From Cheilinus undulatus (Eukaryota; Chordata; Actinopteri; Labriformes; Labridae): a stretch of DNA of 64,000 bases. The translations under genes were made by a program, and so were the position numbers. Under the pieces are notes generated by a model. It did not search any database. It saw only the letters and a list, made by a program, of their open reading frames with translations, and had not been told where the DNA came from. The DNA is taken from assembly GCF_018320785.1 (NCBI RefSeq), contig NC_054877.1, positions 41,624,151-41,688,150 on the forward strand, given 5' to 3'. Below, in pieces: positions 7,061 to 63,233 of the stretch (its first letter is position 1; each line of letters begins with the position of its first letter).

Positions 7061-7334
7061 GTACCAGACAGTGTTACATGTGGGAATAAAGGCACTGCAG
7101 GTTCTTAGAAAGTACTTAGTTACATGGAGGACTCTAAATATGTGGGGGAGAGGGACGAACAAGTAATGGAATATTGTTGTTGTTAGATGAAGAGAGAAGA
7201 TGATGAGAAGATGAGATATCAAAATGAACTGACATGTTTGAAATATGAACTAGATACACATGTGATGATTTGACAGTGTTGATGATGTTGACTTGAAACT
7301 GCATTGGTCAGAAGAATAAATGTAACTTGATGAT

Positions 7335-10300
7335 TTACCAGTCATCATCATCATCGTCATCATCATCATCGTCATCATCATCATCATCATCGTCGTCATC
7401 ATCATCGTCATCATCGTCATCATCATCATCGTCATCATCATCGTCATCATCGTCATCATCATCGTCATCATCATCGTCATCATCGTCGTCATCGTCATCA
7501 TCGTCATCATCGTCGTCGTCATCGTCATCATCGTCATCATCATCATCATCATCGTCATCGTCGTCGTCGTCATCATCATCATCGTCGTCATCATCATCAT
7601 CATCATCATCTGGGTCAATTTCACCTGACAGAGCATCCTCAATCCAGTCCTCCAGTTCATCTACAGATGGCAGGTCTTCCCCATCATCCATGTCCAGCCA
7701 CACGCTGTCAGCCTGTGAGGCAAAGAAGAGAAAGTACTGATAAACTGCTGATCCAGACAGAAAATCAGACACTGGATTTGAAACCTAGAAATAAAGGGTG
7801 TGCCTGCTGAGAAGGGTCGGACATGACATCAACAATATGGCACCATAACACTGATAACTAGCAGCCATCTCTTACAAAGTCTTCAAGTTCAAAGTCCAAT
7901 GGGCAGCATGTAGTTGCTGCTTAACCCTTACCAACAAGGTCAAAAATAAGTGCTTACCATGCTTTTATTTGCCGACAAAATGGTTGAAGCCACAGTTAGA
8001 GCGAAGGCCATGGTAACTGTATAACAAGATAAGTAGGCAAAGGAAGCCTATCAAGTAGCTCTAATACAGATACTTCACTTTCAAGGCAGCCTGTACAGTG
8101 GAGACACTTCCAAGACATATAAAATTTCAAGTATGGCATCAAATCTAGAGAACTCAGCCAATGTATCCTTGCACTATTTCAGAGCCAATGCAAGATAGAG
8201 TAGCCTTCGGTTAAGATGCAGATCCTCCAACCATGGTGTGAGGTGAAGACTGACAAACTGATAGACTGATATACACCAATAGATGAAAGCTTCGACAATT
8301 TATTTTGGCAACAGAAATCTAACCTGGAGCCCATCTGGAGTCAGAGACTCAAATTTTAGAGAATGTAAATCCAAATCTTTATTCAAAAAAAGTTACTGGA
8401 CTTAGGAGTGTAAAGTCTCATTGATGATAGGAAATTACCATGAGAGCATCTCTTTAACATTTACAGGAACCAATGACACCCTTTTGAAAAATCACTGACT
8501 GGGACCCCTCTGTTCTTTCAATGACAGGGACTGCAACAGCTTAATGGTGGCAACAGAGAGACCCTTATCCAACAACATCCACATACATTGAGCAATACTG
8601 GCATGCCCTTTGCCATGAGTGCTGAGTGTACATGTTGATCTCTGCACCGACTTTGACATACTTCACCCATTGGCATGCCTGGTGCCGTGTTTGAGGAGAC
8701 TTCAGTGTTGTTTTGGATGACGGTTAGTTTATTGCAGCAACCATGTCGCAGGACAGGTCTTTCCAAAGACCACATCACTAACTGCATCAACTTTAGGCCT
8801 GCAGTGCTCCGGTCCCCTGACAGCCGTCATCCAGGTCTGTGCCGAGCCAATGCCCCATCTCTCATGGTATCTTCTGAGCTGACCCCTCCATGACCTGTGG
8901 TAGTCCCTGAGGCCTGGTCCAGCCCATCAGGTCTTAGGTACCCAGTATGTGGTGAGCTGGATCAGGCCCAGGAAAGAGTGCCAGGTGCCCCGGTGACAAC
9001 CATATCCAGAAGCTGCCACTTCCCATCTCTAATCTCCTGAGCATGGTAGCATTATGCATGTGGTCTAGCAAACAATACCCAAAAATGTGCCAAAAGGAAC
9101 TTGTCACATAGGAGTCCAGGTGGCGTCTCTGACATGTCATCAATAATGATAGTCAGTGTAACTCCATTGGCTTTATGGGAGCAATATCTGAACTAGCCTC
9201 ATATCTTAAGAAGGTGTTCTTTGGCAGGATCTTTTGTTAATGCACCCATGGCTGCCAAATGGCAGGTTGTGGAACTGCTCAAAAGAGGAGCCTCTGACTT
9301 GCAAATGCAAAAAACTGGCTGCAGATCAAGGTGTCAAGTATGTCTTGTTTTCTCAAAATTTGCTCAATGTAACCCAGCAAACTCTTGGTTGAACTTTTGA
9401 TTACTTTCCCACAGTGTATTAAGGCTTGATGGGTTAAAGGACCAAACTACTTGGCCTGCAATAACTGGTAGTGTGCAAAGTTTCATCCTGGCCCTTGTTG
9501 ACAGCAAGTCTTGGAAAGCTAAACTTGGCAAGGCAAAGAGAACCTAGGATCAAAGAGGCAAGAATTATACTTACATCGTCAGCATCGACAACACCAATCT
9601 GGGGGTGGGACAGGTCGATTCCAAAGGTCTTCTCCCAGTGGGGCAAAAGCTGCAGAAAAAGATATTATTGGGCAGTGTCATGGAAATAAATGAGTACATT
9701 TATCTACGTTCCAACTAGTCTGCTGAGTGTTGATGGACTTTAACTAGTTTCTTGTTTTCTTACCAGGGGGAAGTCATCAGGGTCAATCCAGACAATGCTA
9801 AGATCTGGGTTATCAGTGTTATCCTCGGCAACTTGCTTCAGGATCTCAAGGAACTCAAAACCATCTAAGGAGGGGAGATAATGAATTAACGGGTTGTTGA
9901 TGGGCATCTTTTATTCCCCCATGTATCTGAACCAATTGCTGCCCAACAGGGCTTCTCCAAATATGCTTTAGGTAGGTGGCTATACATTATAATCATGCTG
10001 TATTTCTATCAGAAATGTTACAATGCATTCAAGGTTCCTTTTACCTGGGTCAGACTCCTCAGCAAAAGCAATGATGTGTTCACCGTCAACATCATCCTCC
10101 TGTGAAAAATATACAGACAAACTTAGCAAACTGTTTTCAACTTTTTGTCAGCAAAACCTGGTGTCCCATTGTTAAGCGTGATGCTTAGGCCAAATATGTA
10201 TGAGACATAATGCAAATTTCCCGAACTAAATGTCTGCCCGAAAAGAAATATGATTTGTTCTTCTTTAGAGTCACCCTAAGATGGGAATGAAACCAGAAGA

Positions 10301-16300: not shown

Positions 16301-17660
16301 AGCATCTGTGTTTCTTTCTCTTTTAGTTCTCTCTGTAGTGAGGTTTCATTATTTTCCTTCGATGTTTTTGGCATTACATGAAAGCTCTTAATTATAAACT
16401 TATTTTTGCCAGAATTTCTTTGTGCAAAAAAATTGGAGCTGTCCTTTAACTTGTTTGCTTATTTATTTCCTGACTTGTGTGATATTTATCACAGCTGTCA
16501 CTGAGTGTTCTTTACTTAGCTCCTTCTTAGGCAGAAAACACCTGCATAGCATGCAGCACTCCTTTAATAAAAGCATTAATGCATCAAATCTAAAAGGCTG
16601 CAGCCATTTACTTCATTCCCTATAATACTGACAGTTACCATCGATAACAGTTTGCTAGATATAAACTTGGAATAAATTTCACAAGTCACCACTAAACTAC
16701 AACTTGAACTGCAGAAATAAACTCAGCTTTTGACAAATGAAAGCAATTTGTGAAACTACTGTTAAAGATAAATTGATATTTATTTTTTTTGTCAGTAATC
16801 TGAATTAAAATTAAAATGGTAAATGTGTTTCAGTGCAAAGAATTAACCTCAACATAACAAGGAAAAGAAGTATAAAATTTAATGTTTTTGTGTGGAAAAA
16901 GTGATATTTTATCTTCACTGACCTGGGCCAGCTGTGGGTTGATACTGAAAGCTTTGTACAGAAAGATGATGTAATGTCTCTCTGTGAGGAATGTGATGAA
17001 AATGCTGAGTGTACATGCTCAGAGCAGGCCTGGGGAGTGATAGGCATACTGATAGAGGTGTGCTGAGTGCATCAACACCTATGCACATTCACAAACACAC
17101 ATACATGCACAGACACACATTTTGCACAAGCCATGATAATTCTTAGCTTAGCAGCTATTTTCACCTTGTAGCATCACTTAACTTGAACATGTTTCAGATC
17201 ATGCAGAAAATAGATCCTGCTAGCAAAATACTCCTATTCCTGTCTTACTATAAATAGGAATAATTTTTTCATCTACATCAAGCCAAAGCCCTTCAATAGG
17301 CCCAAACAGTCACATACATTGCCCCTGCATGGTTTCTAATCTTGCAGTCAAGTTAGATTGGTCAAAGACAAAATCACAACTTCTACTAGATCCTCCAGCC
17401 ATGCATTCCCTCTACAAACCCACCTCAAGGGCCAACTCCTCAATCTCAAATTGTCTCTGGGCGACGCGGCTGGATCCAGGATGGTCATGGTAGTACACTA
17501 CCATGACATCGTACTTCTTCATCACAGACTTATAGTTGTTGGCGTTGAGGTCATGGACACGGTCCTTGCCATCGTACTCAGGGAAGTCCAGGCTCTCCTT
17601 GCCCAGTGATAGCCCACAAAAGGACAGCAAGACCGCCACAAGCACCCAGGTCCACTTCAT
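7335..17660 (-). CDS. casq1: Calsequestrin (skeletal-type), complete 11-exon gene
   Basis: This is the sarcoplasmic-reticulum luminal Ca2+-binding protein that polymerises at the junctional SR. Exons: 17424-17660, 14507-14600, 13381-13481, 13101-13212, 12788-12861, 10707-10837, 10570-10615, 10045-10099, 9764-9864, 9575-9649, 7335-7712. Phases agree throughout and give 467 residues. The protein has a signal peptide ([20 protein letters not shown]), then [50 protein letters not shown], the thioredoxin-like repeats, [16 protein letters not shown] and [10 protein letters not shown]. After GEIDP come 90 consecutive Asp and a terminal Trp. Family members are usually about 400 residues with much shorter acidic tails. 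The exon 3 donor (gttcgt) is weak but fits the phase. [16 protein letters not shown] and [10 protein letters not shown] favour casq1 over casq2; a teleost duplicate (a or b) cannot be assigned. Confidence 0.9.
7341..7610 (-). repeat. casq1: GAY trinucleotide tract coding for 90 Asp in casq1
   Basis: Ninety consecutive GAT/GAC codons run from residue 377 to 466. GAC interruptions are scattered through the tract, so it is not a pure microsatellite. The opposite strand reads as an accidental poly-Ser or Met/Thr frame. Confidence 0.97.
7713..9574. other. casq1 intron 10 (1.9 kb), no recognised element
   Basis: The intron lies between the last two calsequestrin exons. The stretch 8460-9150 is unusually GC-balanced and looks like old element debris, but I could match it to no family. 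No splice-consistent coding exon was seen. Confidence 0.4.
11165..11560. repeat. TAGCTA-rich degenerate repeat in casq1 intron 5
   Basis: Many diverged copies of 'atgttagctacat' and 'gtagctaacata' occur in both orientations. The repeat is self-complementary at the unit level (AGCT core). The same sequence type recurs at 56450-57075. Confidence 0.7.
14601..17423. other. casq1 intron 1 (2.8 kb), no gene seen
   Basis: The longest calsequestrin intron. It holds a short CA repeat near 14919-14936 and AT-rich unique-looking sequence. The open frames in it lack homology and splice support. Confidence 0.5.
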
Positions 17661-17719
17661 GGCTCCTCTCTAGGATAAGCTAGATTTATTTGCAGTTTCA
17701 GAAATTAAATGTTGCAGGG

Positions 17720-21547: not shown

Positions 21548-24500
21548 ATGGCTACAGCTCTGGCCAACAGAGCAATGGGAGCTATCGTGGGATCAGCTGT
21601 TGCAGATGCAGCAGGTAACAATAGTAAATGTTTAATTATTTAAATGTTATATTGCATTTAAGAGTGGGATAGATAGCTTTAAAAGAGAAAGTAAAATGCT
21701 TTCTGAAATTTTCTGTGCATCTCCTAAAACAAAAATGGGATTCATTACACCTGCCTTCAAACATACAAACATGCATGACATTTGGTTTTAAACTTTCTTA
21801 CAGATAGGGTCCAGCAGGTTTTTTGCAAATGGACTAATGTCTGTAAAAACACTGTCAAATACAGGCTGATCTCAGGGCTGTGTGTCACCTTTACTTTTTA
21901 TCGTGTACACCCCTTCAGGAGAACAGATTCATTGTTGAGTTTTCTGATGACACTGTCCTCGTGTCTCTGCTTCACGGTTCAGAGAATGGTCATAGTTCTC
22001 CTCTATCTGAGTTTGTAAGTTGGTGTGATGATAACTATCTTCAGCTAAATGTGACTAAAACTAAAGGTAAAGCTGTGTTTGACAATAAACTAAAGTTGGA
22101 TATTAGCACTGAGTCTCTTGTCAAACCAGGACAACAGATAATTTGATAAGGAAGCTGAACTATTTTAATGTTCACAGGGTGATTTAATGTAACTTTTATT
22201 GTTCGTTTATCAAAAGCATTTCATAATTTTCTTTCATTTTCTGGTTTAATGGTTTTCCACTGAGGACAAAAACAGCCTGAATAACATTGTTAAGGTCTGC
22301 TCCAAGATTATCAGTCAGGCAAAGAGACTTGTGTTGCCTCTGGGAGATTCAGGCAGAAAGGAAGGCAATGAACATTAGTAGCCAACCTCTTTGTATTTTA
22401 GCTTGTGAGTTTCCTGTTATGCCATTACTGGATACTTCTGAGTAAAAGTAACCATTATTCTAAATCTTTTATTCCATCTGCTATCAGGTTACTGAACTCT
22501 GTCATTTCAACTGACGTTTTTTAACTGCTATGACTTGTATCCATCTTTTTATTCACATTATTTTAATGTATTTTCTGATATAGTTATCCTGGACCTTGTG
22601 GTCCTTTGCTGACCTCTGTTTGTTGATATTAGTCTCAACATGTTTCAGCTGAATGTTGTGTGTTTTGGACATGTGTAGGTTGCAAATAAATTGCCCTTTT
22701 GGGATTAGAAAATAATGAGAATTTATAAAAGGAAGAGGGAGAAAGTTGCATTCATGTAAGTCCAAAGTTTTGTGCGACCTATCTAATTATTATTGCACAA
22801 TAATTGGATTCACATGAGAATGACAGAAATTAGGAGGCTCCAACCATTTTATTTCATCATTGAATAGAATCCTTGACAGCTCCTCTACTCACATGTTGCT
22901 TTCATTGGTTTATTTCATTGTATGGACTTTTGATTAAAACTACCAGTGGGTTTCTATGTGACTGTACAAATGCCTGCTTGTACTTATGAACTGAAGTTAT
23001 TGTTTTTGAGTTTTAGCACCTTTTCTACACCCTGCAAGCAGCTCAGTGAGAGATTAAAACTCTACTTGACTTCTGTCTTCTGTCTGTCTTCTCCATGCAG
23101 CACAGCCCCTCCACTGGGTGTATGACCTGCAGAAGCTACAGGGGATCCTGGCTCAGGAGCCAAACACTGAGTTTCGCTCTGAGTCGGCCAACCCATTCTA
23201 CAGGAGACAGACAGGCCAGCAGAGCTGTTATGGAGACCAGGCCTTTGTCCTGCTGGAGTCCTTGTCTGAGTGTGGAGGTAGGCTCATCACCTGTTAGATC
23301 TGTCTCCTGATCTCTTCAAACTCTGCGGTTTAATTGATTACCCTTGAATTGATTCCATTATGTTAGTGAAAAAGTAGTGTCAGCAGATTATGTGTTCAAT
23401 CTCTGTTATCATTGATACTATGATTAGACCTTTGACACTTCCAGATGGCCCCCTATCTGTTTCTGACATGTAGCAGACCAACCTCACCACGTCTGAATGG
23501 CTGTAACATTGAACCTTACATAAAAATGTAGTTAAAATTAGTTATTTAAAAGAAGATAGGAATTGAAAAGACATGAACACTGCCTAAAAGTGAATATTTT
23601 CATCGTAATTTTTGTATCTTTCTCCAAAAAGAAGACAATATATCATTCATTACAATACTTAATCAGATGTATGTTTCCTTTACTGTTTCTGGTGGGGAAA
23701 CTAAGTGATTATTTATATTTATTCATAGCTTGCCTCAGCTATTAATTTGTGTTAGTTGGCTCTTCAGTGTTTCAAATAAATTTTATCCCTTGATTCAACA
23801 GGCCTGAATGTTGATGATCTGAAGCAGCGCACCCTGAAATTCTTTGGGCCTGGATCAGAGTACGACACTCCCATCAATGATCCTTACAGAGAGAAAGGAG
23901 GTAGGAGAGCTGTCTTTCTTTTGTGTTGTTGTTGAGAACTGAAATTTTTTTTTTTCTTCTCTGAATGAGATGTGAATACAGATGTTTTATTTGTGTTCAC
24001 TACACACCAGGGCCCAGACCTCAGCTACCCATTGAGGGACCATGGAGACAAGCAAGTTTGAAGGGGTTTTTGAAGAATGTAGATGCAGGCAAAGAAGAGA
24101 CAGGTGAGTCTGTCGGCATTCTGTCACAAAATCATAAACATATTCCAGACAAAGAGCATCTTACAATTCCTGTTATTTCCACAGGCTGTGAGAATGACTG
24201 CCAGATTGATGGCGTGGCAAAGCTTGCGCCCATAGTGGCATTTTATGCAGGGAAGCCTGACATGCTGGAGAAAGTGGAACTGGCAATCCGAGTCACCCAG
24301 AACAACGACGAATGTGTGGCAGAGACTCTGGCAGCTGCAAGGTCTGTATTATTTATGTAGAAATCAACAGACTGTGGCATTATTATATTCTCTTTAATAC
24401 CAATATGAGATCTGAAAAATAATGTGACACAAATCACAGAAACTTAATGTGTAGGAGCATTTTTGAATCAGTGTTTTTCTGCTATTTTTAGTGCATGTCC

Positions 24501-26014
24501 TTCTTGTCTTTATAAGGAGCTGTTACAGATGGTATAATACTAGCTGCCTCAAACAGTATTTGGCCAAATAAATGTGGAAGGTGTGTTTTGAGACACCAAT
24601 GTTTACTGCCTGGAAACAGCCTTGTAAATCTGTCTGACTTAAACTTTGAACTCCAACATAACAAATTAACATGTGAAAAGGCTAATATTTTTTATTTGAA
24701 GTAATACAATTTCTTTAAAAATGCTTCAAGAAAGAAAACAAAGGGAGTAGCTGATTTATAATTTAAACTGAATCCTGGTTTGTTTCCCAGGATCTTGGAG
24801 CATTTCATCCTTAATGGTCCTGATCCAAAAGCTCTGGACTCTGTGCTCAATCAGCTCAGTGATCTGAACAGAAAGAACCCGCAGGATCTTGACAAAGCAG
24901 TCACTGGTATGTGAAACATGCCTCAATGTTGTAACCAAAATCATGAGACTGAGTCATGTGATATATGGCCTTAGACTTCCTCATTTAATGTCAGGGTAGT
25001 TTAACCTAACCTGTATTTACTTAGAGAAAAAGTTAAATATATTATTCTCTTAGATATTCGTTATTTAATGCATTTCATGGCCTGTAGGGTTAACCCTTTT
25101 TTTCTTTATTACAGCTCACCTTTATCAGGTGAAGGAAAATCTGTCAAAGACCCCTCAGGAGCTGATCCCAGCTGTGTTTCCAAACACATGAGGTAATCTC
25201 ACAAAGCTCATTTTAATGTCTTTTAGTAGTAGTTCTTTAAATAAGAAATGATCAGGATTTTAGAACTACTTGTAACTCAGGCAGATTTTTGCTAGAATCG
25301 AATGAAACAAGCAGTAGAGAAGACTATACGGCTAAAATGTGGCGCTGATGTTATCAGGTTAGATAACCTTTAATGTGAAAGCACAATGTACAGGGAATTT
25401 TCTTTGCATTTTATAAAAATCTAAATTTATTGCAGATGAATTCAACTATGTGAATATGTACTACATCTTTTAAAGGAACATGTAAAAAATAGATGAATCA
25501 AAGGTGCATTTACTTATGTCCTAAGTGCTGTGTGACCATTTTAGATATCATTGCACATTAAGTGGATTCAAGGGGGCTTTATTGTAATTTTACAGCACTT
25601 ATACATGAGGAAGATCAAAGTTAAGCAATGTTGCACACACCATTTTATGTCATCTTTGAAAGCAGTCATTGACTATTCCTGATGTTCTTTCAGGTTTGCC
25701 AGGTGCATTCCAGGCAGCGCTGCATGGTGTCCTGACAGCTACGTGCTATGAGCAGGCAGTCAGAGACACCATGAGCTGCGGGGGATGCACCTGTAGCAGA
25801 GGGTCCTTCATTGGGGCCTGTCTTGGAGCTCAGGTAGGGTTGGGCTAATCATATAATATGTAAGATATAATACAGCGATCGTTTATCTGATTCTTTACAA
25901 AATGTGCTGTTTTCACAGGTGGGTCTGGACGGAATTCCAGCTTCTTGGACGTCAAAAACCCTGCGTTACAACACAGTGTTAGAGCATGCCAAGAAGATCA
26001 CCAAAGACCACTAA
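21548..26014 (+). CDS. selenoj: Selenoprotein J (ADP-ribosylglycohydrolase / J1-crystallin family)
   Basis: Coding exons: 21548-21614, 23101-23277, 23802-23900, 24011-24103, 24185-24341, 24791-24906, 25115-25192, 25694-25833, 25919-26014. All phases agree, giving 340 residues if the TGA at 25189-25191 is read as selenocysteine (residue 262). The N-terminus MATALANRAMGAIVGSAVAD with AAAQPLHWVYD, and later YGDQAFVLLESL, match the ADP-ribosylglycohydrolase/J1-crystallin fold. The TGA falls in VFPNT-U-GLPGAFQAALHG, two bases before a donor. Conserved sequence (TATCYEQAVRD, GGCTCSRGSF, GACLGAQVGLDGIPASW) continues for 78 more codons, so it is not the stop. SelJ is known from ray-finned fish and has no firmly assigned enzyme activity. 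A SECIS lies 60 bp past the TAA. Intron 2 hosts a LINE fragment. Confidence 0.93.
21806..22530 (+). mobile_element. Non-LTR retrotransposon (LINE) fragment in a selenoprotein J intron
   Basis: Plus-strand frames keep reverse-transcriptase wording: TDRVQQVF, FSDDTVLVSLLHGSENGHSS, FVSWCDDNYLQLNVTKTK, then a NNIVKVCSKIISQAKRL-type C-terminal block and KSFIPSAIRLLNS near 22460-22500. The copy is frameshifted, 5'-truncated and lacks the endonuclease, so it is dead. Confidence 0.75.
25189..25191 (+). other. selenoj: In-frame UGA selenocysteine codon
   Basis: The TGA follows AACACA (Asn-Thr) at the end of the seventh coding exon. The two downstream exons stay open to a TAA at 26012-26014 and keep family-like sequence. 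Confidence 0.9.
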
Positions 26015-26059
26015 TAGTTTGTTGTTTTTCAATATGTGAACAAAAGAAAAACTGTTGAG

Positions 26060-26135
26060 CTTTTGCAGAACAGTGAATGAAAGCTCTTGTCTAAACTGTT
26101 AGATGGCAGGAGCTAGATGTTTTTGTCTCTGTTTA
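26060..26135 (+). promoter_or_regulatory. selenoj: SECIS element in the selenoprotein J 3' UTR
   Basis: ATGA at 26077-26080 forms the 5' half of the non-Watson-Crick core. It is followed by a 10-bp helix (agctcttgtc, 26082-26091, with ggcaggagct, 26105-26114; two G-U pairs). An apical loop carries AAA at 26093-26095, 12 nt after ATGA. The 3' core partner AGAT is at 26115-26118. Flanking bases (cagaacag and tgtctctg) can extend a lower helix. This matches the eukaryotic SECIS layout that recruits SBP2 and eEFSec. Confidence 0.88.
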
Positions 26136-26153
26136 AGTTTGACATTTTTCCTG

Positions 26154-26159
26154 AATAAA
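26154..26159 (+). other. selenoj: Polyadenylation signal of selenoprotein J
   Basis: Canonical AATAAA, 140 bp after the stop codon and just past the SECIS. Confidence 0.8.
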
Positions 26160-26164
26160 GTGAT

Positions 26165-27317
26165 TCTTAAATAAAAGAAACTTATTTTGCCTGTGTTTTA
26201 GTTTGGAATGCATTTTTGGCTTCTCCCACTTATTTGGGATCAGTAGGACCTGATAAGTTTTAAAACTCATTCTCCCCTTTGAACAGGAATTTTTCTTTTT
26301 TCTTTGTTTTACTAAAAATCATGCCTGCAAATCTCTTGTTAAGGCCCTGTTTCTGCAGAAAATTCAGCACTGGATCAATTTTAGACCCGATGTTTTGGCT
26401 GTATGTCAGCCAGTTGTCAGGGGTCGTGTGTCCAAGAGAGATATGGTGGATTTATTTTGATGATCAGCCAAAAGAGCTTCTTAAGGCCAAACATGAACAT
26501 AATTTTCAATAATAAACGTTCTGATTTTCTCTAAAATCCACACAAATTCCCTAAAATTTCAAAGAAATAAACTACAATTTCAAAAGGACATGAGCAGGAT
26601 TTTAACAGAACAAAAACAAATTGAAATGTATTATTGGTGCAAATAGTAGAAATTAAATTAAAAACAAATCCCTTATTCAGTAGCTGGTCATTTAAGCCCA
26701 TACAGGTATAAAAATCAAAATACAAGTGCAGACAATCGAGGTACTAAACTACTTTTATTCACATTTATTTAAACATGTGTCTACATCTTTTCTATTCTTG
26801 GGAAAACAAGTGACACATTCTGTTCATTTTGGACAAGTATTTTTATGACACGTAAACACTGTTTAATGGCATGGTGACTTTAAAAAAATACAACCCATAA
26901 ACAGTAAAAAAGAAATAGGCATTTTAGTCACTAACTAATGGCTTGCATAGTCCATCTTGGGAGCTTCAGAATAATTTATTATGTTGAAGTTCAACTTGAA
27001 AATCTTTTAAATATCTTTGGGATGTGTCATTAATGTGTTACATGGAGAGACATGAACTTGACCTTACAGAAGAACGTTGCAATGTAATAGTTATGAATTT
27101 ATAATCCAACACTGTATGCATTGGAAACATTAGATATGTCATCTGAAAACAACGTATTGACAAAACAAGTTTTTTATTCTCGAAACACTCTCTTTGTTCT
27201 GAAAAACCATGCGCGTAAACACTTGATGCACTAAAACATCGCATGAAGTTTGTCCTGCCGCGCATGCCGTAGAGGTTTCTGACGACAGAGTCGGTTAACT
27301 GCATTTGAGAATCAAAC
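26165..27317. other. Intergenic spacer selenoprotein J to eif2b5
   Basis: About 1.1 kb, AT-rich. No gene or clear repeat was recognised. The last ~100 bp before 27318 are richer in G+C and contain CpG-bearing GC(C/A) motifs, fitting a housekeeping promoter for eif2b5. Confidence 0.5.
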
Positions 27318-30300
27318 ATGGCCGGTAAAGGAGGAAAACAGAACCGTTCTGGTCCGGGCCTTTCTGGTAGGAAAGGAGGAGGTGAGCAAGAGGAAGAAGA
27401 GCAGCCGCTGCAGGCTGTTTTAGTCGCTGACAGCTTCAATCGGAGGTTTTTCCCGGTGACCAAAGACCAGCCGAGGGTAAGGAGCTGGCTAAGCTAACTG
27501 GATGCTTATGCTATCTGACTGATGTCCATGCTGTAAACAGTGACAGGGCTGCACTGGCACCCATGAAACATCTTTTTCACAGCTAAATGAGGAACTTTTA
27601 ACCATTCTTTTGATGTTTTAAGTTAGTTTTTCAAATATTGCTAGGATTTATATGCAGTTTCCAACTTGATGTGATGTATTAATTTAATCATGTCTCATGT
27701 ACTGTGTTGACAGGCTCTCCTGCCGTTGGGTAATATTGCCATGATCGACTACACGCTGGAGTTCCTCACCTCCACCGGGGTGCAGGAAACATTTGTCTTC
27801 TGCTGCTGGATGGCCAGTAAAATTAAAGAGCACTTATTGTTAGTCTCACTAAGACTTTCCTACATTTATATACACCTTTATGTAGCCTGTACATTTACAG
27901 TGTTTATTGTTTTTTTTAATGGTTAAAAAAAAAAAATACCGGAATTTACTTAAGTAGACAGCAGAATTTATCACTAGGTGTTACAATACCACAGCTGCAA
28001 TAGAAGCAGCTCCATATTGGGTTGTTCAGTATTGCATTTGCAGATAAACCCGTGCACACTGACTACCATGTCTGAGTCCAAAAGTTGCTGATGTTTTTTG
28101 GAATTTAAACAATATGCATGAGTTTCTTGGAATTTTTAATGCATCCGCTCTGTCCTATGCAGATGCATTTGATCTAAAACTGCTGTTCCTTTTGAAACTA
28201 TCATTTAAAAAGAGATAGTATTACTTTAAAACTAGAGATGTACAATATTAGATTTTTGCCGGTATCCTATATGCCGAAATTTACAAATTAATTTTGGCCA
28301 ATACTGATATCCATAGTAATGTTGTTCAGACCTCTAACCTCAGTCCTTAACACTAGACCCGTCAGGGATCTATATACTTAAAACAGCCAATTTACCTGTT
28401 ATTAAACTGCATTGATTTTCATTAATAGCACTGATAAAGAGCACATTTTTGAACTATAGAAGTGAAGAGCTCATTAGCCTCAGAAAGAGAACTAGATCAC
28501 TGGGGGGTGATGATCCATCACATTGAAAATTATATTAGAAGTGATTACTCAGTCCTGAAACTTCCACAACCTCAGATTCTTCTTCACTCAAAGCTTTTAG
28601 CAAATATAAATGAAATTTCACAATTTTGTCTGTGGTATCCATATTGAAGTTTGAGCTATGTCTTCTCTTTAGGCAGGGCATTCATAGAGAAAACGTGTTT
28701 CCACTGCAAAATCTAATGTTTATCTGCTATAATCAAATAAAACAGTATCAATGTGTTCTTATTGGATAAATTTTACCTGCATGGCAGTCCTAGTTATAAA
28801 TGATCATTTATAAAATTTAGGTCTCTGTAAAGATTTTTATGACACCAGATGCTACAAAACAAACTTTTAGGAAAAGTAGAAGACTGATAGACTTTAAAAT
28901 TTTATCAATACAGAGTTAGGGTTAAAGAACAGTACGAGGTAAATATCACCTGGTGGAGGTCCTGGTGTTGAAATGCACTTGAAATTTTAAAGATGAAGAA
29001 AGAAACAACTTAATTTCTTAGAAAACACTCTTAAATTCAAGGAATGTGGATGATCAAAGAATCAGACCTGCAGTTTTTGCACACTGAGCCCGAACTTTTT
29101 CCAATTTGGCATAGCTCTATGATGCATGAGCTGGTGTGGTATGAAGATTTCTTTCAGGATGGATTGACCCTGAGTGTTTGTCAAGGATTGAGAGAGGCAT
29201 AGAATCATCTTCACTCTCTTACCCGAGTATGAAACAATTTGCCATATTTTCCAATTACGTGCCCAAAAAAAAACCCAAAAAAACCATTGGAGAGTAACAG
29301 AATTAGTGTGCGGCAACCTTTACTCTGATGGTCTGTTGGTCCGGCCTAAAGCTTCACAAACTTTTTTATATACGGCTGATATTTACAGCCAATATAGAGC
29401 AGTATTTACAGTGATATACTGATTGAAACGTTTACATGCGCAAATAGAGATGATTCATTTTTAAGCCAACATCTGCTGATGCCGACATCATGACGGTAGA
29501 ATTGAACAGGATCTCTACTCAAACATACACTGGAAGTTTTGAAATTCATTCTTAGGAATAAGCCTTTGAGATGTATCATCTATCAGTAATGTACAAAAAC
29601 AGAACAAATGCTGAACGATGCATAACGGCTATGTATTGAACATTCTGGAAACTTTATCAAGACTGTAATTGTCAATTAAGATTATTGTAGCCATAGTTGA
29701 GTGAGTTTTGTTAAAAGGTGTTTCCCATATTTTGTCCAAAAAAGAGTCAAAATAGTCTGATAACTTTTCAATATATTGAACTCCACTATGCCAACTACAA
29801 CGACCCCACTAATAACCAAAAAGTAAAATTTTCATCATTTTTCACCATGTTATCAAAAACTTAAAATTAAGGGTCCGAAAAGTAGATTTATTGTTGGCAT
29901 TTGATTGCATTTTCTTGCACAGGTGATTATGACATTATGACTGATCAGTTTAAATCTCCATGTGTGCAAACTGTTCTCAGTTAATATGTTGATCTGTTAA
30001 TGTGCTTGACAGGAAGTCAAAGTGGTGTCGACCCACTTCTCCAAACACAGTTCACATCATCACCTCAGACCTTTACCGCTCCTTAGGAGACGTGCTCAGG
30101 GATGTTGATGCAAAGTCTCTTGTGCGCTCTGATTTTGTGTTGGTTTATGGAGATGTGGTATCGAATGTCGACATCAGTCAGGCGCTGCAGGAACACAGGT
30201 AAGCCCTAAGTGTTTTTTTATTTATGCCGAAGAAATTAAACTGCAAATGGACTGTGTGGCTGTAATACTTCTGCTGTTTGTTTGTGTGATTTTGCTTGTG

Positions 30301-33300
30301 TTCAGACATCGTAGAAAGATGGAGAAAAACATCTCAGTGATGACGATGATTTTCAAGGAGTCATCACCAGGTCACAGGTCCCGCTGTGAGGAAGATGATG
30401 TAATTGTTGCCATAGACAGTAAAAGCAAGCGGATTTTACACTACCAGAAAACACACGGGCTGAAAAAGCTACAGTTCCCTATGGTAAGGGTTCATCATTT
30501 CCACTCTGTTTACATCTTTATCTTCTGGCTTAGGAGTGATGGATGACAGTTGTTTGCTTTTTTGTTTCACAGAACATTTTCCACAGTGGCAGTGATGAGT
30601 TTGAAATCAGGCACGACCTGCTGGACTGTCACATCAGCATCTGCTCCCCACAGGTTAGTTTGTGTCATCAGGACTGGAGCGCTTGAACTCATTTTTACTA
30701 ACTCATGTAACAAGGGTGTTCTGATTTTCAGGTTGCTGAGCTCTTCACTGACAATTTTGATTACCAAACTAGGAACGACTTTGTCCGAGGGATATTAGTC
30801 AATGAAGAGGTAGAGCGCCGCCCAGAGTTGTAATCTTGTGTTCTTGCTGTAGCAGAGGTCATCATTTGTTTTGTTTCTGTTTAGATTCTTGGGAACCAGA
30901 TTCACATGCATACCACCAAGGACGGCTACGGTGTCCGAGTGTCAAACCTCCTCATGTATGACTCAGTGTCGTCTGACCTGGTACGGCGGTGGGTTTACCC
31001 GCTCACCCCAGAAGCCAACTTCATTGACCAGAAGGGGCGGAGCTGCACATATTCACGCCACAACGTCTACCGAGGATCTGGGGTCAGTCTGGGTCACGGA
31101 AGTCAGATGGAGGAGAACGTCCTCATTGGCTGTGACACCAGTATTGGTGCTAACTGTTACATTTCTAACAGTGTCATTGGAAACAACTGCACCATAGGTG
31201 AGCTCATAATAAACTAAAAATGCTTCATGCATTCAATTGTAAGAACAAGATTATGCACAAATACACCATAATAGTGGTTTAATCTTTTCCCTTTGTTGTT
31301 TTAACAGGTGATAATGTAACGCTGGACCATGCCTATATCTGGAATAATGTTCACATTGCCAGCAACGTGGAGATCAGCCAGTCAGTGGTTTGCGACAAGG
31401 TGGAGGTCAAAGAGGGCGTCAAGCTGAATAAACAGTGTGTCCTTGCTTATAATGTAAGCAGTGCATGAATTACCATGTCTTATTCTTGCTAAATTTGTGA
31501 GTTTAAACGTTTACTCTAGTGCAGTGTTAGTCAACGCGTGGCTCTTTTGTGATGATTTGTGGCTCTTTTATGTCTTAATTTAAAATATTATTTCCCCAGA
31601 AAACCATAAAAAGGAAAACTTTGACCTCAGAGATTATCCATTGCAAGTCACATTAATCAATTTGTTTCCCACACTTTTACAGCTGGCTTTGATTGTCAAC
31701 CAATTATCTGTATATTTCCATTGCCCTTATTTGCATTTTTTTGCCCCTTTATCAAATTTTTTTGCCACTTTAAATCCATTTTACTGCTTCAAGGCCACTT
31801 TTGCCACTTCTTTTGTTACTTTTTGCCCATTTTTGCCCCGTGTAACTCCTTTTTTTTTGTCACTTCTCATCCATTTTTGCTTTTGCTTTGTTTTTGTTGT
31901 TTTTTGCCACTTGATGCCTACTTTGCCCCTTTTCACCCATTTTTGCTGCTTTTTTATCATTTAACTTTTTCTTATTGCCACGTTTTCCCATCTTTGTCAC
32001 TTTTCACCACTTAGATTGTGGCTCTTGCAAAGGTATTTTTCAGCAATTTGGCTCTTTGGTTGATCAAGGTTGAGTAACACTGCTCTAGTGTTTTTACTTA
32101 GCTGAGGTTTTAAGCTATGTGGCTTTAAAATACCGAACAATCCAACTCATGTCTTCAACCTTTAACTTGTTGGCCTGTAGTAAACCAAAAAATAACAGCA
32201 TGAAGAATTTCTGCACCAAAATATCAGTATTAATTTAAAAGGAAACATTCCTATGTTATGTATATTTTTTAGTTGGGGTCCTACAGAATCACAGAAGTTT
32301 AAGTTTTTAAAGACTGAGAAAGTCTTAATTTGACAATGGCAATGTGTGCCAACTGCCTTTTTATAGAGGATGCATAGGTTGCGTGTTCGATCACCCAAAG
32401 TCACCACCATATCATTGATCCACCTGAGCACTGCTCAGGGCTGCTCCTCTCTGCAGTCTCCTTCACAGAATTAAAATGGCACCTCATCAAGCTTACTAAA
32501 CAGAAAACAGACGTTTCATTTTCATTCAAAAATTTCAAATGCATTGAAAAAAATCCCTTCCTAGTCACACTGGAATAGGTCCCAGGTTGCACATGCACTC
32601 TAGCATCACTTCAAGCACACTTGCGCAACCTGAGATCATGGCCAGGAAGTACTTTTTTTCAGCTTAATTCTCCATCAATATGAGAAATTCATACCGAACA
32701 ATCCATATAAGTTTGTTTCTGTTTAATAAATGTGGCTTATGAGCTGCTGTTTTTATTGAACAGAGTCCTCAATTCAAAACAAGAAATACAAACTCTCAAG
32801 TAGTGAAGTAATTTTGACATTTTAACTTAATTTACTAATTTTAAAAGAAAGAAAACCCTTCACAACTAACTAAAAAATACACTTAAACACTTAAATAAAG
32901 TGCAAGATTTATCTGCAAATACTGGTCATTCATGTTACATGTTTTATTATGCTGTTATTTTCTTTTTTGCAAATCTTGGCAAAAATTCACCCTGTGTTTG
33001 AGACAGTATTTTTTTAGATCCTGTAACACTGTGTTAGTAGGTTTATGTTGAGGTTTAGCTGATAGGTCTTTTAACGGTGAGTTTTTTTGCTCAACAGTGC
33101 CAGAAAACTTTTGATTAAATCTCTTATGTACTTCATTCAACACTGTAGTTTTCTGTGGTTCTTTGTTTTTTTAGGTGGTGATTGGACCAAACATCTCTCT
33201 ACCTGAAGGCACTGTGGTGTCCATGCACCACCCAGAGGAGGAGGAAGAGGATGATGATGAATTCCTCAGTGATGATGCTGAGGTCGGTCAAAGTAAAGAA

Positions 33301-36300
33301 AAAACAAAAAAGAAAGGTGTGTATATGAACAGTCTTCACTGATTAGTAAAAGTTTTAAATGTGTCTATAATGGAGCTGTTTTCTGCCGTCCGTCAGTGTT
33401 TAACCCTGCAGAGGTCGGAGCAGAGGGGAAAGGCTACATCTGGAAGGCCAGCAGTTTGGATGACACAGAGGATGAGGAGCTATCTCAGTGTCTGTGGGGT
33501 AGGAGAGCAGTCGGGCTTTTTAATAGTCATTAATGGGTCCATTTTCTTTCCACATGATGCTGTAGTCCATGGATTTTGTATTTAATGCTTCAGGTTTGGT
33601 GTTGAACCCCGACCCTGAGAGTGAAAGTGAGGACAGTGAGCCTGATGGTCCTGACGATCCAGTGATCCCCTCACCTGAGATGGATGATGTCAAAGGTGAG
33701 TTGTTCATTTATTTTAACTTAATGTGGACTCTAATTACTGACCCCTACTGGCAAAATACCAACAAAAAAATCTGATTTAGCCACTCTCCTGATCACTCAC
33801 ACAAGCTTTTAAATGGAACTTTTGTTCAATGTTTTCGTTAATGCTCTTACATTTTGTAGGACACCAGAATGTAAAGATAACCTCAAGTTAAAGAAAAACA
33901 ATTTACAGCTCCGGCAGTGCATTTTTAGACAGTTATGAAACAGACAAAAGGAAATACAGATGTCACACTCCAGCACCTTTAATCCTTAAAAGTCTTAAAC
34001 CAGTTTTTGAAATTTAAAGTGGACACATGCAAAAATCACTTTTTCAGGCTTCTCTAACAGAAGTATTTGCCCCTGGCCTGTACTTGAGGGGATTGTGGAC
34101 AGGCCAGAGGCAAATACTTTTGTTAGAGAAGCCCCCCCTTTTTAGAAACTGTATGAAACAAGCAGTTCTCAGATCTTCCCCTCATGATGTCATGTGGGAA
34201 GTTAGCCTCGCCTCAACCATTTCCTTAGAAGGGCGGAGGCAGACAGCTCATTAATATTTAAAGCCATAGACACAGAAACAACTCATTCTGGGCAGGGCTG
34301 AAGCAGAGGGCTTTTTAGAAATGTAAAAATCCAATACTGGAGTGTTTATAGCAACAACGTTCACAGGCATATTTTGGGGACCTCTGACACCAATGTAAAC
34401 TTTTCTTAAAGGGTAAAATAATGCCCCCTTTAAGGCCATTAAAAGTCTTAATTTGACCACTGAGAAGTCTTGGATTTTAGAAGGCACATTGGGTCACTTT
34501 TCATTTTAAATTAGAATCAAGCCTTGAGAATGAGAAGTCCCTGTCAAAAGTTATTGTTTTGATTAAGAGCCGCCTGGCAAATCAATTTACATTTACTCTG
34601 TACGTTTATTCCAAATAACGTTTAAGAAAGTTTTCTTTCAAGAACCAAGTTATTTAGTTACATTTGCAAGATAACAGCTTAACTCAGCCTCAGTCAATCC
34701 AAAATTATCACAGATGTCATTTATTTACAATTGGCACTTCTGTCATTATAAAATTATTTAAAAAAATGAATAAAGGTATATTTATTATGATGTTCTTGAT
34801 AAATCCATAATTTTAAAATATTTTACTAACAGTTTTACATGTATCTGTTCAGGGTTTTTTTAAGGAAAATTGCAAACCTTCAAACTGCAGCTAAAAATGA
34901 ATTCTTCTCTCACTCTCGCTTTACCGTGTTCATGTTTTAGTCTTCCAGTTGGAGGTGTTTGGGACTCTTCAGAGAGGTCTGGAAGAAAACATCAGCTTTG
35001 ACAATCTAGTGCTTGAGATCAACTCTCTTAAGTAAGGAGAAATTTAAAGTTACCTGTGCTTCTTTTATTTATTACAAAGAGATTATTTTGGTCAGTTGAA
35101 CATGCTCTGTTTCTGCAGGTACGCCTATAACATCAGTCTGAAGGAGGTGATGCAGATTTTAACCAGAGTGGTGTTGGACTACCCGTTCCAGCAGCAGGGA
35201 AACCAGATTACCACGTCACAATACGTTGCTCTGCTACTACCTGTGAGTATGATCGATTTTAGAGAACATTAGAGCAGACATGATAGAGACAGATATTGTG
35301 TGATGAATTTTCCCAATGTCCTCCTTTCAGTTACTGAAGAAATGGGCTCCAGTGTTTAAGAACTATGTAAAGAGGGCTCAGGACCATCTGGACTGTCTAT
35401 CTGCATTTGAGGAGCATTTTCTGGAGCAGGAGAGTCACTGGGCAGCGATGGTCAAGGTCAGAGCCTATTATCAGCACACCACTGTTAAATAAAATGTTTG
35501 GATTACAGTGTAATAGAATGATTATTGGACATGAGGAACTGCATAAATTATCTGTGTCCTCTGTGTTGATCAAGCCTTGTTGGTTTGTCACCTGCAGGTT
35601 CTGATGAACATGTACCAGCTGGAGATCCTGGAGGAGGAGATGATCCTGCACTGGTTCTCGCAGGGAGCTACAACAGATAAGAGCAGGCAGCTCCGCAAGA
35701 ACCAGGGGGTAAGTACAGAGCAAGGTTAGCACAGAAAACAAGGCTTTAGCACAGGATTAGTCTGACCTGTGGACCTCTGATAATTTGTAATATTCACGTG
35801 TGTTTTAATCATGTGCAAATCAACCATGCCTATAATTTGCAAGGTAAATATTCCAGGATAAATCACCCATAGTATTTCAGCAAACAGAGGTCCACAAATA
35901 ATACTATTCCTGTGCAAATCAGCATCTCTGTAATTTAGGGTGGTAACTGTGGTTTCTTTATGGTCCGTGCTGCTTTTTCTGACTGAAAAAATAAAAGCGG
36001 CTGCACAGGACACTGTCAACAAAGATTTGACACAAATGCATTGTTAATAGTGCTTTGCTTTCAATTTGAATCAGATAATGTCCACAAATTACTTTATTTC
36101 TTTTAAATCATTAGTTTAAACTCTACAGAAGATTATTAGGGCCACTGAAAAAAAATTTGAGATAATTTTTTTTTTCACTTGTGAGAAAAAAGTCAGAATT
36201 CTGAGAAAAAAGTCAGAATTCTGGGATTAAAATCAGAATTCTGAGATTAAAGTCAGAATTCTGAGAAAAAAGTCAGAATTCTGAGAAAAAAAGTCAGAAT

Positions 36301-60470: not shown

Positions 60471-61994
60471 TGGCTGTCGTACTCCTGGAATCTGTCTCCT
60501 TCAAGCAGTGTAGCACTGATTAGGTGTTTGGTGAAGGCAAACCTCTCCTTAGCATGGCCCAGGATTGTGTCACAAACCTATAAAAAAAGACAGATTATAT
60601 CATACAGGACCTACATAAAAGTGTCTTGTCCAACTGTTCACATCACACCTTACTATGTTTAACACTGTATAATACCTATACTACACACTCAGGTCATGTC
60701 CATGACCATGACAATGTGTATTTGTAGTAGAATAGAAAAGAATATACTTTATTGTCCCCTTGGGGAAATTTGCTGTGGACCCAAAATGCTTATAGATCAA
60801 ACTGTCCAAGATCATAAATAACAAGATATGACTGACACATTGCACATCAGTACATGACGTCCACTCCGGCATTTTAGGAGCCCTTAAATGGAGACTTCTA
60901 TGAATGCTGCTGGTCCCATTTCAGTTTGAAAACAATGGTGTTGCATTTGAGAAGAACTGACCAACTTTTGGGATGCGGGATGTCACCTGCTGCATGATGA
61001 TGTTGAGCTGATGAGCATAGCAGTGGACATAGTGTGCATTCACATACACATCGCTCACCTTCTTCTGGACACCACCTGGGGCTCCTCTCATGACGCTCGC
61101 ACCATCATAGGCTTGGGAGATGAGCTTGCTCTTTTGGTCATCAGGGAGAATGAGGCTCAGCCTCTCCAAAACTGCTGTGGCAATGGAATCAGCTGTGGCA
61201 GATTGCAGAGGTATAAACTCAAAAAATCTCTCCTGCACTTCATTCACTCTGTCTATGTAGCGGACCACAAGAACAAGCTGACACTGAGTGGAGATGTCCA
61301 TTGTTTCATCAGCCTGGATGGATATAAAGTCTGCACACTGAACTTCCTCAATAATAGACTCTCTCAAAACTGCCAGCATGCAGTCAAGGAGTTCATTCTG
61401 CACTGTTCTGGATGTCCCTTTAAACACAGTCGCAGTCTGAAGGTGCTCATGGACAGCTGCATCTAGTGATGCTACAAAATCCACCAGTCCTCTGAAAGCA
61501 CCTGGATTTTCTGAGCTTTCACTCTCATCATGGCCTCTCAGGGCGAGCTCAAAGGCACCACAGAACTTTATGCAGTCTATTATTTTAGACAGGACATGCC
61601 TATTTTTGTCGACCTCCTCATTATGCTTAAGAAGTCCTATCCTGTAGCCTTCATCAAGCTGAGCTGCAATGTAAGCTCTCCCAAACATGCCCAGGCGCAT
61701 AGCATTTTCCATATGGCTCCTAGCTTGCTCATGCCTTTTTACTTTCTCAGAAAAATGCTTTAAATCTGCCATACCTGTCTGAATCCACGCTTGATCAGTC
61801 CCTTTGGTTTGGAAAAGCAGACAAGGGAAGCAAAATAAAGCACCTGCCTCACTGCATCCAGTTAGCCAAGACATCCTCTCATACCAGCTCCGTGAAAAAG
61901 ACCACGTATATCTCCGTCCTCTGTCGTTGGACTGCTGTGTTATTAATACGTCCGGCCGGTCAGGTCCTAGCTCCTTCACTATTTGACTCAACAT
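60471..61994 (-). mobile_element. hAT transposase (DUF4371 / ZMYM-like), C-terminally disrupted
   Basis: A 357-codon frame (61994-60921) encodes the N-terminal two thirds of an hAT transposase. It has a TTF-type zinc finger (SWYERMSW, then GCSEAGALFCFPCLLF), DUF4371-like sequence (HVLSKIIDCIKFCGAFELAL, RGHDES), the first catalytic Asp context (SIQADETMDIS), AYDGASVMRG and HCYAHQLNIIMQQ. It then runs out at FFSNATPLFSN. A further piece at 60577-60471 (VCDTILGHAKERFAFTKHLI, SATLL) reads as the following family segment after a tatag acceptor-like site. The terminal hATC dimerisation block is not seen. A foreign repeat (60727-60790) lies in the gap. The long intact frame suggests a fairly recent insertion or a domesticated fragment; either is possible. 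Confidence 0.82.
60727..60790. repeat. LINE/SINE 3'-tail-like repeat in the hAT copy
   Basis: The block 'tactttattgtccccttggg' followed by 'gaaatttgctg' resembles the tail 'tactttattgatcccagggg' common to several fish retroposons. It lies between the two recognisable transposase segments. Confidence 0.45.
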
Positions 61995-63233
61995 TAGTGC
62001 TTAGGTGTACCCTAGTAGTGATATAGTAATTGCATATCACATGGTTGTAAACATAATGTACATTAATTCTTGTATTCCAGCATTGCTGACTCTGCTTTTT
62101 GGTTTGGTAAATTAAATGCGCCCCCCCAAGAGAAAAATTCACCAGCCGCCACTGGGGCATACTGTGTTTTTAATGATACCACAGCCACTGTCCCTTTTTT
62201 CTACAGGAGAGACAAACAAACGCACAAACAAATGTGTACACGTTGTTTTATGCTTTATAGAGGTCAGCAGTATGGTTCTGGAAGTAAAAAATGCCGTCAA
62301 TTTTCTCCATAGTCAGTTAGATTGGTAGCCATATTACTGAAAGTAAACAAGTTAAACTTACTGGAAACTATCTGCAAGTGAAATGATGGCAAAATCTCCT
62401 TTAAAAGACAAAAGTTCTTAAGATATTAATCTGATTTAAGAAAAATATAGTTTATTTGCAATCCCAGCCGAAAAATACTACAATACCCACAATCCTTGAG
62501 TGTCACAGGGATGTCCCTAATTGGTTGGCATGAAAACGCCGCCAGCTGCAATATATATTGAAATGCAAAAGCATTTTGTGCATGTACAATATTTTGTAAA
62601 ATTATTTAAAAAGAGAAACTAGTGACATTTCATGTAGCAAAAGGACAACAAAATAATGTTTCATGAAACATATTTCTGTTTTGTATTTTATTCTTCTTAT
62701 TATTATTATTAAGTTTTTTTTTTTGTTTTTGTTTTTTTGCATTTAGTTATATGTTTTTGTAGTTGAACCTCACGGCCACCATAGTTCGTACAATAAGTCA
62801 ATGTAACAAATTGCAGAACCGGAACTTTGCCCCCACAGTTGCAGCATAAGCACACAGTCCAGCATTACAATAGCATGATAACATTGTTGCTTCTTCTCCA
62901 CAAAGGCTCAGTCGTGTCCTGGTGAGAATTTACGGGCACACAGTAGTTTCCTTCTTTCCGTGCAGCTTCGTGTTGACGCCCTCATTCATGACGTCCACTG
63001 CACATCTTTCATTGGTTACTTGTTTGCTGTTCAAGGTGAAGCCTGGTGGGAGGAGGGGGAGGAGGGAGGAGGATTTCAAGAGCGGAGAAATTCGGTCCGC
63101 TCAGTGCGCAAGAACGCACGGAGGAGAGCCAAACGACGCTACGGCGGAATATTATCACATTAAATTTCACTTTTACCCACTTTTATGTTTTGCAAAGTAG
63201 TTCTCTCCACTTAAATCGACTCTTGTGAAGGAT
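61995..63233. other. Spacer and promoter region of the right-edge gene
   Basis: No gene recognised. The last 250 bp (62980-63233) turn GC- and purine-rich (ggaggagggggaggaggg) with several CpGs, fitting the promoter and 5' UTR of the gene whose first exon follows. Confidence 0.45.

Follow-up and report, generated by a model that had tools for sequence, protein, structure and literature searches.

A predicted selenoprotein J gene of Cheilinus undulatus with its UGA beside a splice donor and an ADP-ribosylhydrolase-type fold lacking the metal-site motif

Results

We analysed a stretch of 64,000 nucleotides from the fish Cheilinus undulatus (contig NC_054877.1, our C13:41624151-41688150; hereafter the window) and found that it carries a gene for selenoprotein J (SelJ). 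Nine coding exons on the plus strand (21548-26014), all separated by GT-AG introns, are predicted to join into a 1,023-nt frame encoding 340 residues. Exon 1 starts with the ATG at 21548 (21548-21614, phase 1; its counterpart in the second copy described below has equal length and phase) and is followed by exons 2 (23101-23277, phase 1), 3 (23802-23900, phase 1), 4 (24011-24103, phase 1), 5 (24185-24341, phase 2), 6 (24791-24906, phase 1), 7 (25115-25192, 78 nt, phase 1 on both sides), 8 (25694-25833, 140 nt, ending in phase 0) and 9 (25919-26014), which closes the frame with a TAA at 26012-26014. The sole internal stop of the joined frame is a TGA at codon 262 (25189-25191), predicted to be read as selenocysteine (Sec). 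Exon 7 ends at 25192, the single base that follows this codon, and the donor of intron 7 (GTAATC, 25193-25198) begins immediately after it, as had been noted in an earlier reading of the stretch made from the letters alone (the sequence-only reading), which placed the UGA two bases from a splice donor. The same reading described family-like sequence over two more exons; exons 8 and 9 do extend the match to Pfam PF03747 (ADP-ribosylglycohydrolase), which covers residues 11-317 across the TGA at 147.8 bits.

A hairpin with the shape of a selenocysteine insertion sequence (SECIS) begins 62 nt past the TAA in the 3' untranslated region (UTR), and polyadenylation signals AATAAA follow at 26154-26159 and 26170-26175. 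The element (26071-26131, plus strand, a sub-threshold match to Rfam RF00031) has the order of motifs announced for it earlier, which we recovered at 26077-26118: a 5' ATGA (26077-26080), a 10-bp helix II (26082-26091 paired with 26105-26114; 26082-26114 with its apical loop), an AAA at 26093-26095 and a 3' AGAT (26115-26118). This core folds as one arm of a longer hairpin. When the 160-nt UTR was shuffled preserving dinucleotides, a helix of at least 10 bp in the SECIS pattern arose in 10 of 20,000 shuffles. With a strict pattern and a helix of at least 9 bp, the SelJ site stands alone on both strands of the window (mean 0.3 in 30 window shuffles), and a looser pattern gave 11 matches of at least 10 bp in 225,404 strand-bases of DNA from this fish, about 0.008 per 160 nt; both SelJ elements are among these 11, five of which, SelJ's included, lie in the window. 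The loose motif is thus not rare in 64 kb and is rare in a 160-nt UTR, so that it is the 3'-UTR position that makes the hairpin informative.

We searched the genome (1.17 Gb, 46 contigs) with the SelJ protein and found a complete second SelJ gene on contig C19 (C19:27471343-27480210, minus strand), composed of nine exons and encoding 344 residues. The two copies agree in phase at all eight introns, and seven of their exons are equally long, exons 2 and 9 of the C19 copy being longer by 3 and 9 nt; its introns 2, 3, 6 and 8 are longer, while introns 1, 4, 5 and 7 are shorter. The proteins are identical at 220 of 340 aligned residues, and a TGA stands at the equivalent codon, followed by a G and then by the donor GTGAGC. 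Before the TGA, 173 of 261 residues are identical, with 0.25 nonsynonymous (dN) and 1.74 synonymous (dS) substitutions per site; after it, 46 of 78 are identical (dN 0.33, dS 1.28), indicating that purifying selection acts on SelJ on both sides of the TGA. A SECIS-like hairpin forms in the C19 3' UTR as well, 107 nt past the stop, and the core motifs and helix are present in both copies. Retention of the TGA, the downstream sequence and a SECIS by two diverged copies would be difficult to account for if the TGA were not read. A SelJ duplicate (SelJ2) is reported in medaka and stickleback in a section of PMC3316567. A further locus on C24 was rejected as a second SelJ, being more distant (the best of its three rows by E-value covers 33 residues at 42% identity). 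This locus (C24:706000-715900) holds, amid long tandem repeats, a PF03747 gene with GENCNRG in place of the DxDT motif, unlike ARH1 and ARH3, and is possibly a further non-canonical relative.

Bacteria carry SelJ-like PF03747 proteins, of which we examined the best 80 of 113, found among others in Granulosicoccaceae, Vibrio, Endozoicomonas and Desulfobacterota. At the Sec site the residue is Cys in 76 and Ser in 3, one protein not covering it. Six residues (Asp20, His27, Tyr66, Thr183, Gly293 and Arg298) are invariant in the covered bacterial relatives and both fish copies; Gly293 and Arg298, present in 79 of 79 covered relatives, lie C-terminal to the TGA. Position 294 is Asp in all 79 and Cys in both fish copies. 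A tree was built from 36 rows, namely the two fish copies, two rows of DraG type and 32 of the 80 bacterial loci. A branch with 100% support by the Shimodaira-Hasegawa-like approximate likelihood ratio test (SH-aLRT) has SelJ together with its bacterial relatives on one side; within the bacteria the position of SelJ lacks support, and the branches to the outgroup are long. No Pfam family was shared among 20 flanking open reading frames (ORFs) of 16 bacterial loci (drawn from 36 ORFs of 18 loci, out of the 80; 4 of the 20 were without a match), and hence gene context gives no function. Five plasmid records match at 22.9-28.4% identity, no tblastn match was obtained in phages, and four stretches of viral contigs fitted a pattern, none encoding a relative. 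Our literature search on SelJ, from which most subscription journals were absent and which is therefore no proof of novelty, returned no paper on bacterial SelJ relatives.

Several points weigh against reading the gene as a working SelJ. The exon joins are predictions from sequence, and the dN and dS figures are rough because dS between the copies is high. The Rfam model SECIS_1 scores 18.7 bits on the SelJ UTR, under its cut-off of 35 (E-value 0.29 over all families), and 17.9 bits, likewise under the cut-off, on the C19 element; a chance-level mir-22 match near the SelJ SECIS has a lower E-value, 0.17. SECIS_1 was not reported in a 25-kb Rfam scan at E ≤ 1, and a local covariance model run with default filters missed the SelJ SECIS in the window. 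This model was made from nine of the 11 RF00031 matches of the genome, L016 and L019 having been dropped by eye, a set unchecked gene by gene in which only L014 adjoins, by eye, a GPx4-like exon. Its one window match under default filters, at 7263-7354 (13.9 bits), is not SelJ; with filters off, it gives the SelJ SECIS 8.0 bits (E-value 0.023 over 211 bases). The 11 matches come from a genome-wide RF00031 search at E ≤ 10, in which scoring covered 150 of the 33,994 first-look candidates and SelJ's element is absent; 2 of the 11 listed exceed the cut-off. Our own pattern recovered 6 of 10 such elements (L019 left out) and is thus not sensitive. SECIS_1 has the top bit score of all Rfam families on the SelJ UTR. 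Taken by its motifs and fold, the SelJ SECIS is judged to be present and not strong by automatic score. A true stop at codon 262, leaving a protein that ends at residue 261 or a decaying gene with exons 8 and 9 as remnants, would fit the normal meaning of TGA and the sub-threshold score of the SECIS. We regard it as extremely unlikely, since the C19 copy keeps the TGA and both later exons with dN below dS after the codon, a SECIS-like hairpin stands in both 3' UTRs, and truncation at this codon would remove a C-terminal part with the invariant Gly293 and Arg298.

We then compared SelJ, read through the UGA, with the ADP-ribosylhydrolases (ARH) and DraG, whose fold we recognized in a bacterial relative of SelJ. 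By alignment, the residue at the Sec site is Ala in DraG and Val in MJ1187. The aspartates of the GGDTDT stretch, which we take to be Asp314 and Asp316 of human ARH3 (hARH3), align with Cys294 and Cys296 of SelJ (Cys and Ala in the C19 copy), the DxDT motif as a whole with Cys294, Cys296 and Ser297, and the TDD stretch of DraG with Ser64-Cys65-Tyr66; Cys65 and Cys294 are present in both fish copies. Presumably the aligned TDD and DxDT positions are metal ligands in the enzymes; the aspartates of a binuclear metal centre are absent from SelJ. Asp316 of hARH3 is named in a passage of PMC7050489, which also states that every ARH enzyme characterised so far uses a binuclear metal centre. Judged from these alignments, SelJ is a fold relative of the ADP-ribosylhydrolases without their metal-site motif. 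SelJ could instead be an active ARH/DraG-type ADP-ribosylhydrolase in which Sec is a bystander; this we find improbable, given the binuclear centre used by the characterised enzymes covered in that passage, the replacement of the GGDTDT aspartates in both copies, and the Ser-Cys-Tyr that stands where DraG has TDD. The pattern of a pocket Cys changed to Sec, together with metal-site Asp changed to Cys, suggests a selenol or thiol role over metal-dependent ADP-ribose hydrolysis.

The UGA also bears on mRNA decay and splicing. The sequence-only reading had proposed that its nearness to the end of an exon could expose the mRNA to decay when UGA is read as stop. A part of PMC4911915 gives a rule of 50-55 nt for decay-eligible exon junctions. 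By this rule the junction of exons 7 and 8, which follows the UGA by 1 nt, is too close and is excluded. That of exons 8 and 9 comes 141 nt after the UGA, a distance shared by the C19 copy, and qualifies. Eligibility for decay thus stands, by virtue of the exon 8/9 junction, and the junction beside the UGA is not responsible for it. Within the donor, the GA of the Sec codon occupies exon positions -3 and -2, the third codon base being the -2 A in both copies. Changing TGA to TGT or TGC loses one pair with U1, and the predicted pairing energy rises from -6.7 to -5.1 or -5.3 kcal/mol in the window gene and from -9.7 to -8.1 or -8.3 kcal/mol in the C19 copy. A Sec-to-Cys change would therefore be expected to weaken intron 7 splicing, and so may be disfavoured. 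With a predicted U1 pairing of -6.7 kcal/mol, the intron 7 donor is the second weakest of eight (range -6.1 to -12.7), which could favour a Sec-less isoform made by alternative splicing round the UGA, whether from a different donor in exon 7 or by skipping of an exon; the UGA form would then act as a decay switch. We consider this very unlikely: skipping the 78 nt of exon 7 keeps the frame but removes Sec and 25 other residues.

Other features of the window were recorded alongside SelJ. Within SelJ intron 1, a 99-residue open frame (21847-22146, plus strand) resembles by eye a reverse-transcriptase fragment of a long interspersed nuclear element and has no Pfam match. EIF2B5 seems to begin at 27318 on the plus strand (start placed by eye), about 1.3 kb 3' of the SelJ stop, and has an LbH_EIF2B domain at 30885-31217. 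On the minus strand, the last exon of a calsequestrin-like gene (7341-7610, ORF 7335-7784) seems to end in 90 unbroken Asp codons (62 GAT and 28 GAC), a Trp and a stop; the N-terminal exon (17412-17669) matches PF01216, and the Asp tail was assigned to the gene by eye. Vertebrate calsequestrin tails are much shorter than 90 Asp. A near-perfect inverted repeat (34046-34134) with sub-threshold matches to Rfam microRNA families is probably a small mobile element, and a 359-residue open frame (60921-62000, minus strand) has a DUF4371 domain, which also occurs in genes derived from hAT-type transposases.

Discussion

Our analysis indicates that the window gene is almost certainly a working fish SELENOJ, in which a 3'-UTR SECIS would direct Sec insertion at UGA 262. 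The proposal of a SelJ with a Sec-UGA and a SECIS thus held up, most strongly through the C19 copy. We infer that in Cheilinus undulatus ribosomes read past this UGA through exons 8 and 9 to yield a 340-residue protein of the ADP-ribosylglycohydrolase fold. Sec262 would stand in place of a functional thiol, as suggested by the Cys that 76 of the 79 covered bacterial proteins have there, and would be positioned, by alignment, beside the adenine-stacking tyrosine of DraG. Where the UGA is read as a stop, the mRNA would become a candidate for decay through the exon 8/9 junction. We know of no established biochemical activity of SelJ; a study by Castellano et al. in 2005 reportedly gave the fish protein a structural crystallin role, which is compatible with our data. 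Likeness to the jellyfish J1-crystallins is among the marks by which SelJ is known. In zebrafish larvae, Selenoj was detected by mass spectrometry and, in sbp2-/- larvae, was among the lowered selenoproteins, being with Selenop the least lowered, according to a portion of PMC8881744; this lowering agrees with SECIS-dependent synthesis. The earlier statement that SelJ is confined to few lineages is borne out among vertebrates, where a section of PMC3316567 has it in fishes only. Outside the vertebrates, however, part of PMC7539508 reports SelJ proteins of both the Sec and the Cys type from algae, and bacterial Cys relatives exist.

As a tentative proposal, to which we give a low chance of being correct, SelJ would be the animal branch of a thiol subfamily that extends from bacteria to fish within the ADP-ribosylhydrolase fold. 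In it a near-invariant pocket Cys would have become Sec and, in the fish copies, metal-ligand positions (65 and 294 in both) would have become Cys, so that a di-metal hydrolase pocket was converted to a selenol/thiol centre of redox or soft-metal type; the overlap of the Sec codon and the donor would perhaps disfavour a change to Cys. The bacterial Cys relatives, being single-exon and Sec-free, offer a route to learning the role of the Sec site, and a testable prediction follows from the replacement of Asp by Cys in the two fish genes.

Compared with known systems, the window gene is an ordinary member of the SelJ family, such as is expected in a fish genome: it shares with published fish SelJ the fold family, the single internal Sec-UGA, the 3'-UTR SECIS and a fish host, and no difference was found between them in a comparison of described features rather than by alignment. 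Its bacterial relatives differ in being without a TGA at the Sec site. A sequence search of solved structures with SelJ returned first mt-SAF23 of the trypanosome mitoribosome (6sga, E-value 5e-7), a match that is mainly C-terminal (SelJ residues 240-326); a GGxxCxR stretch stands there in place of DxDT, and the assembly-factor function is taken from the name of the entry. With DraG and ARH3, SelJ has in common the Pfam family and, through the bacterial relative, the fold, but does not keep their metal-ligand aspartates.
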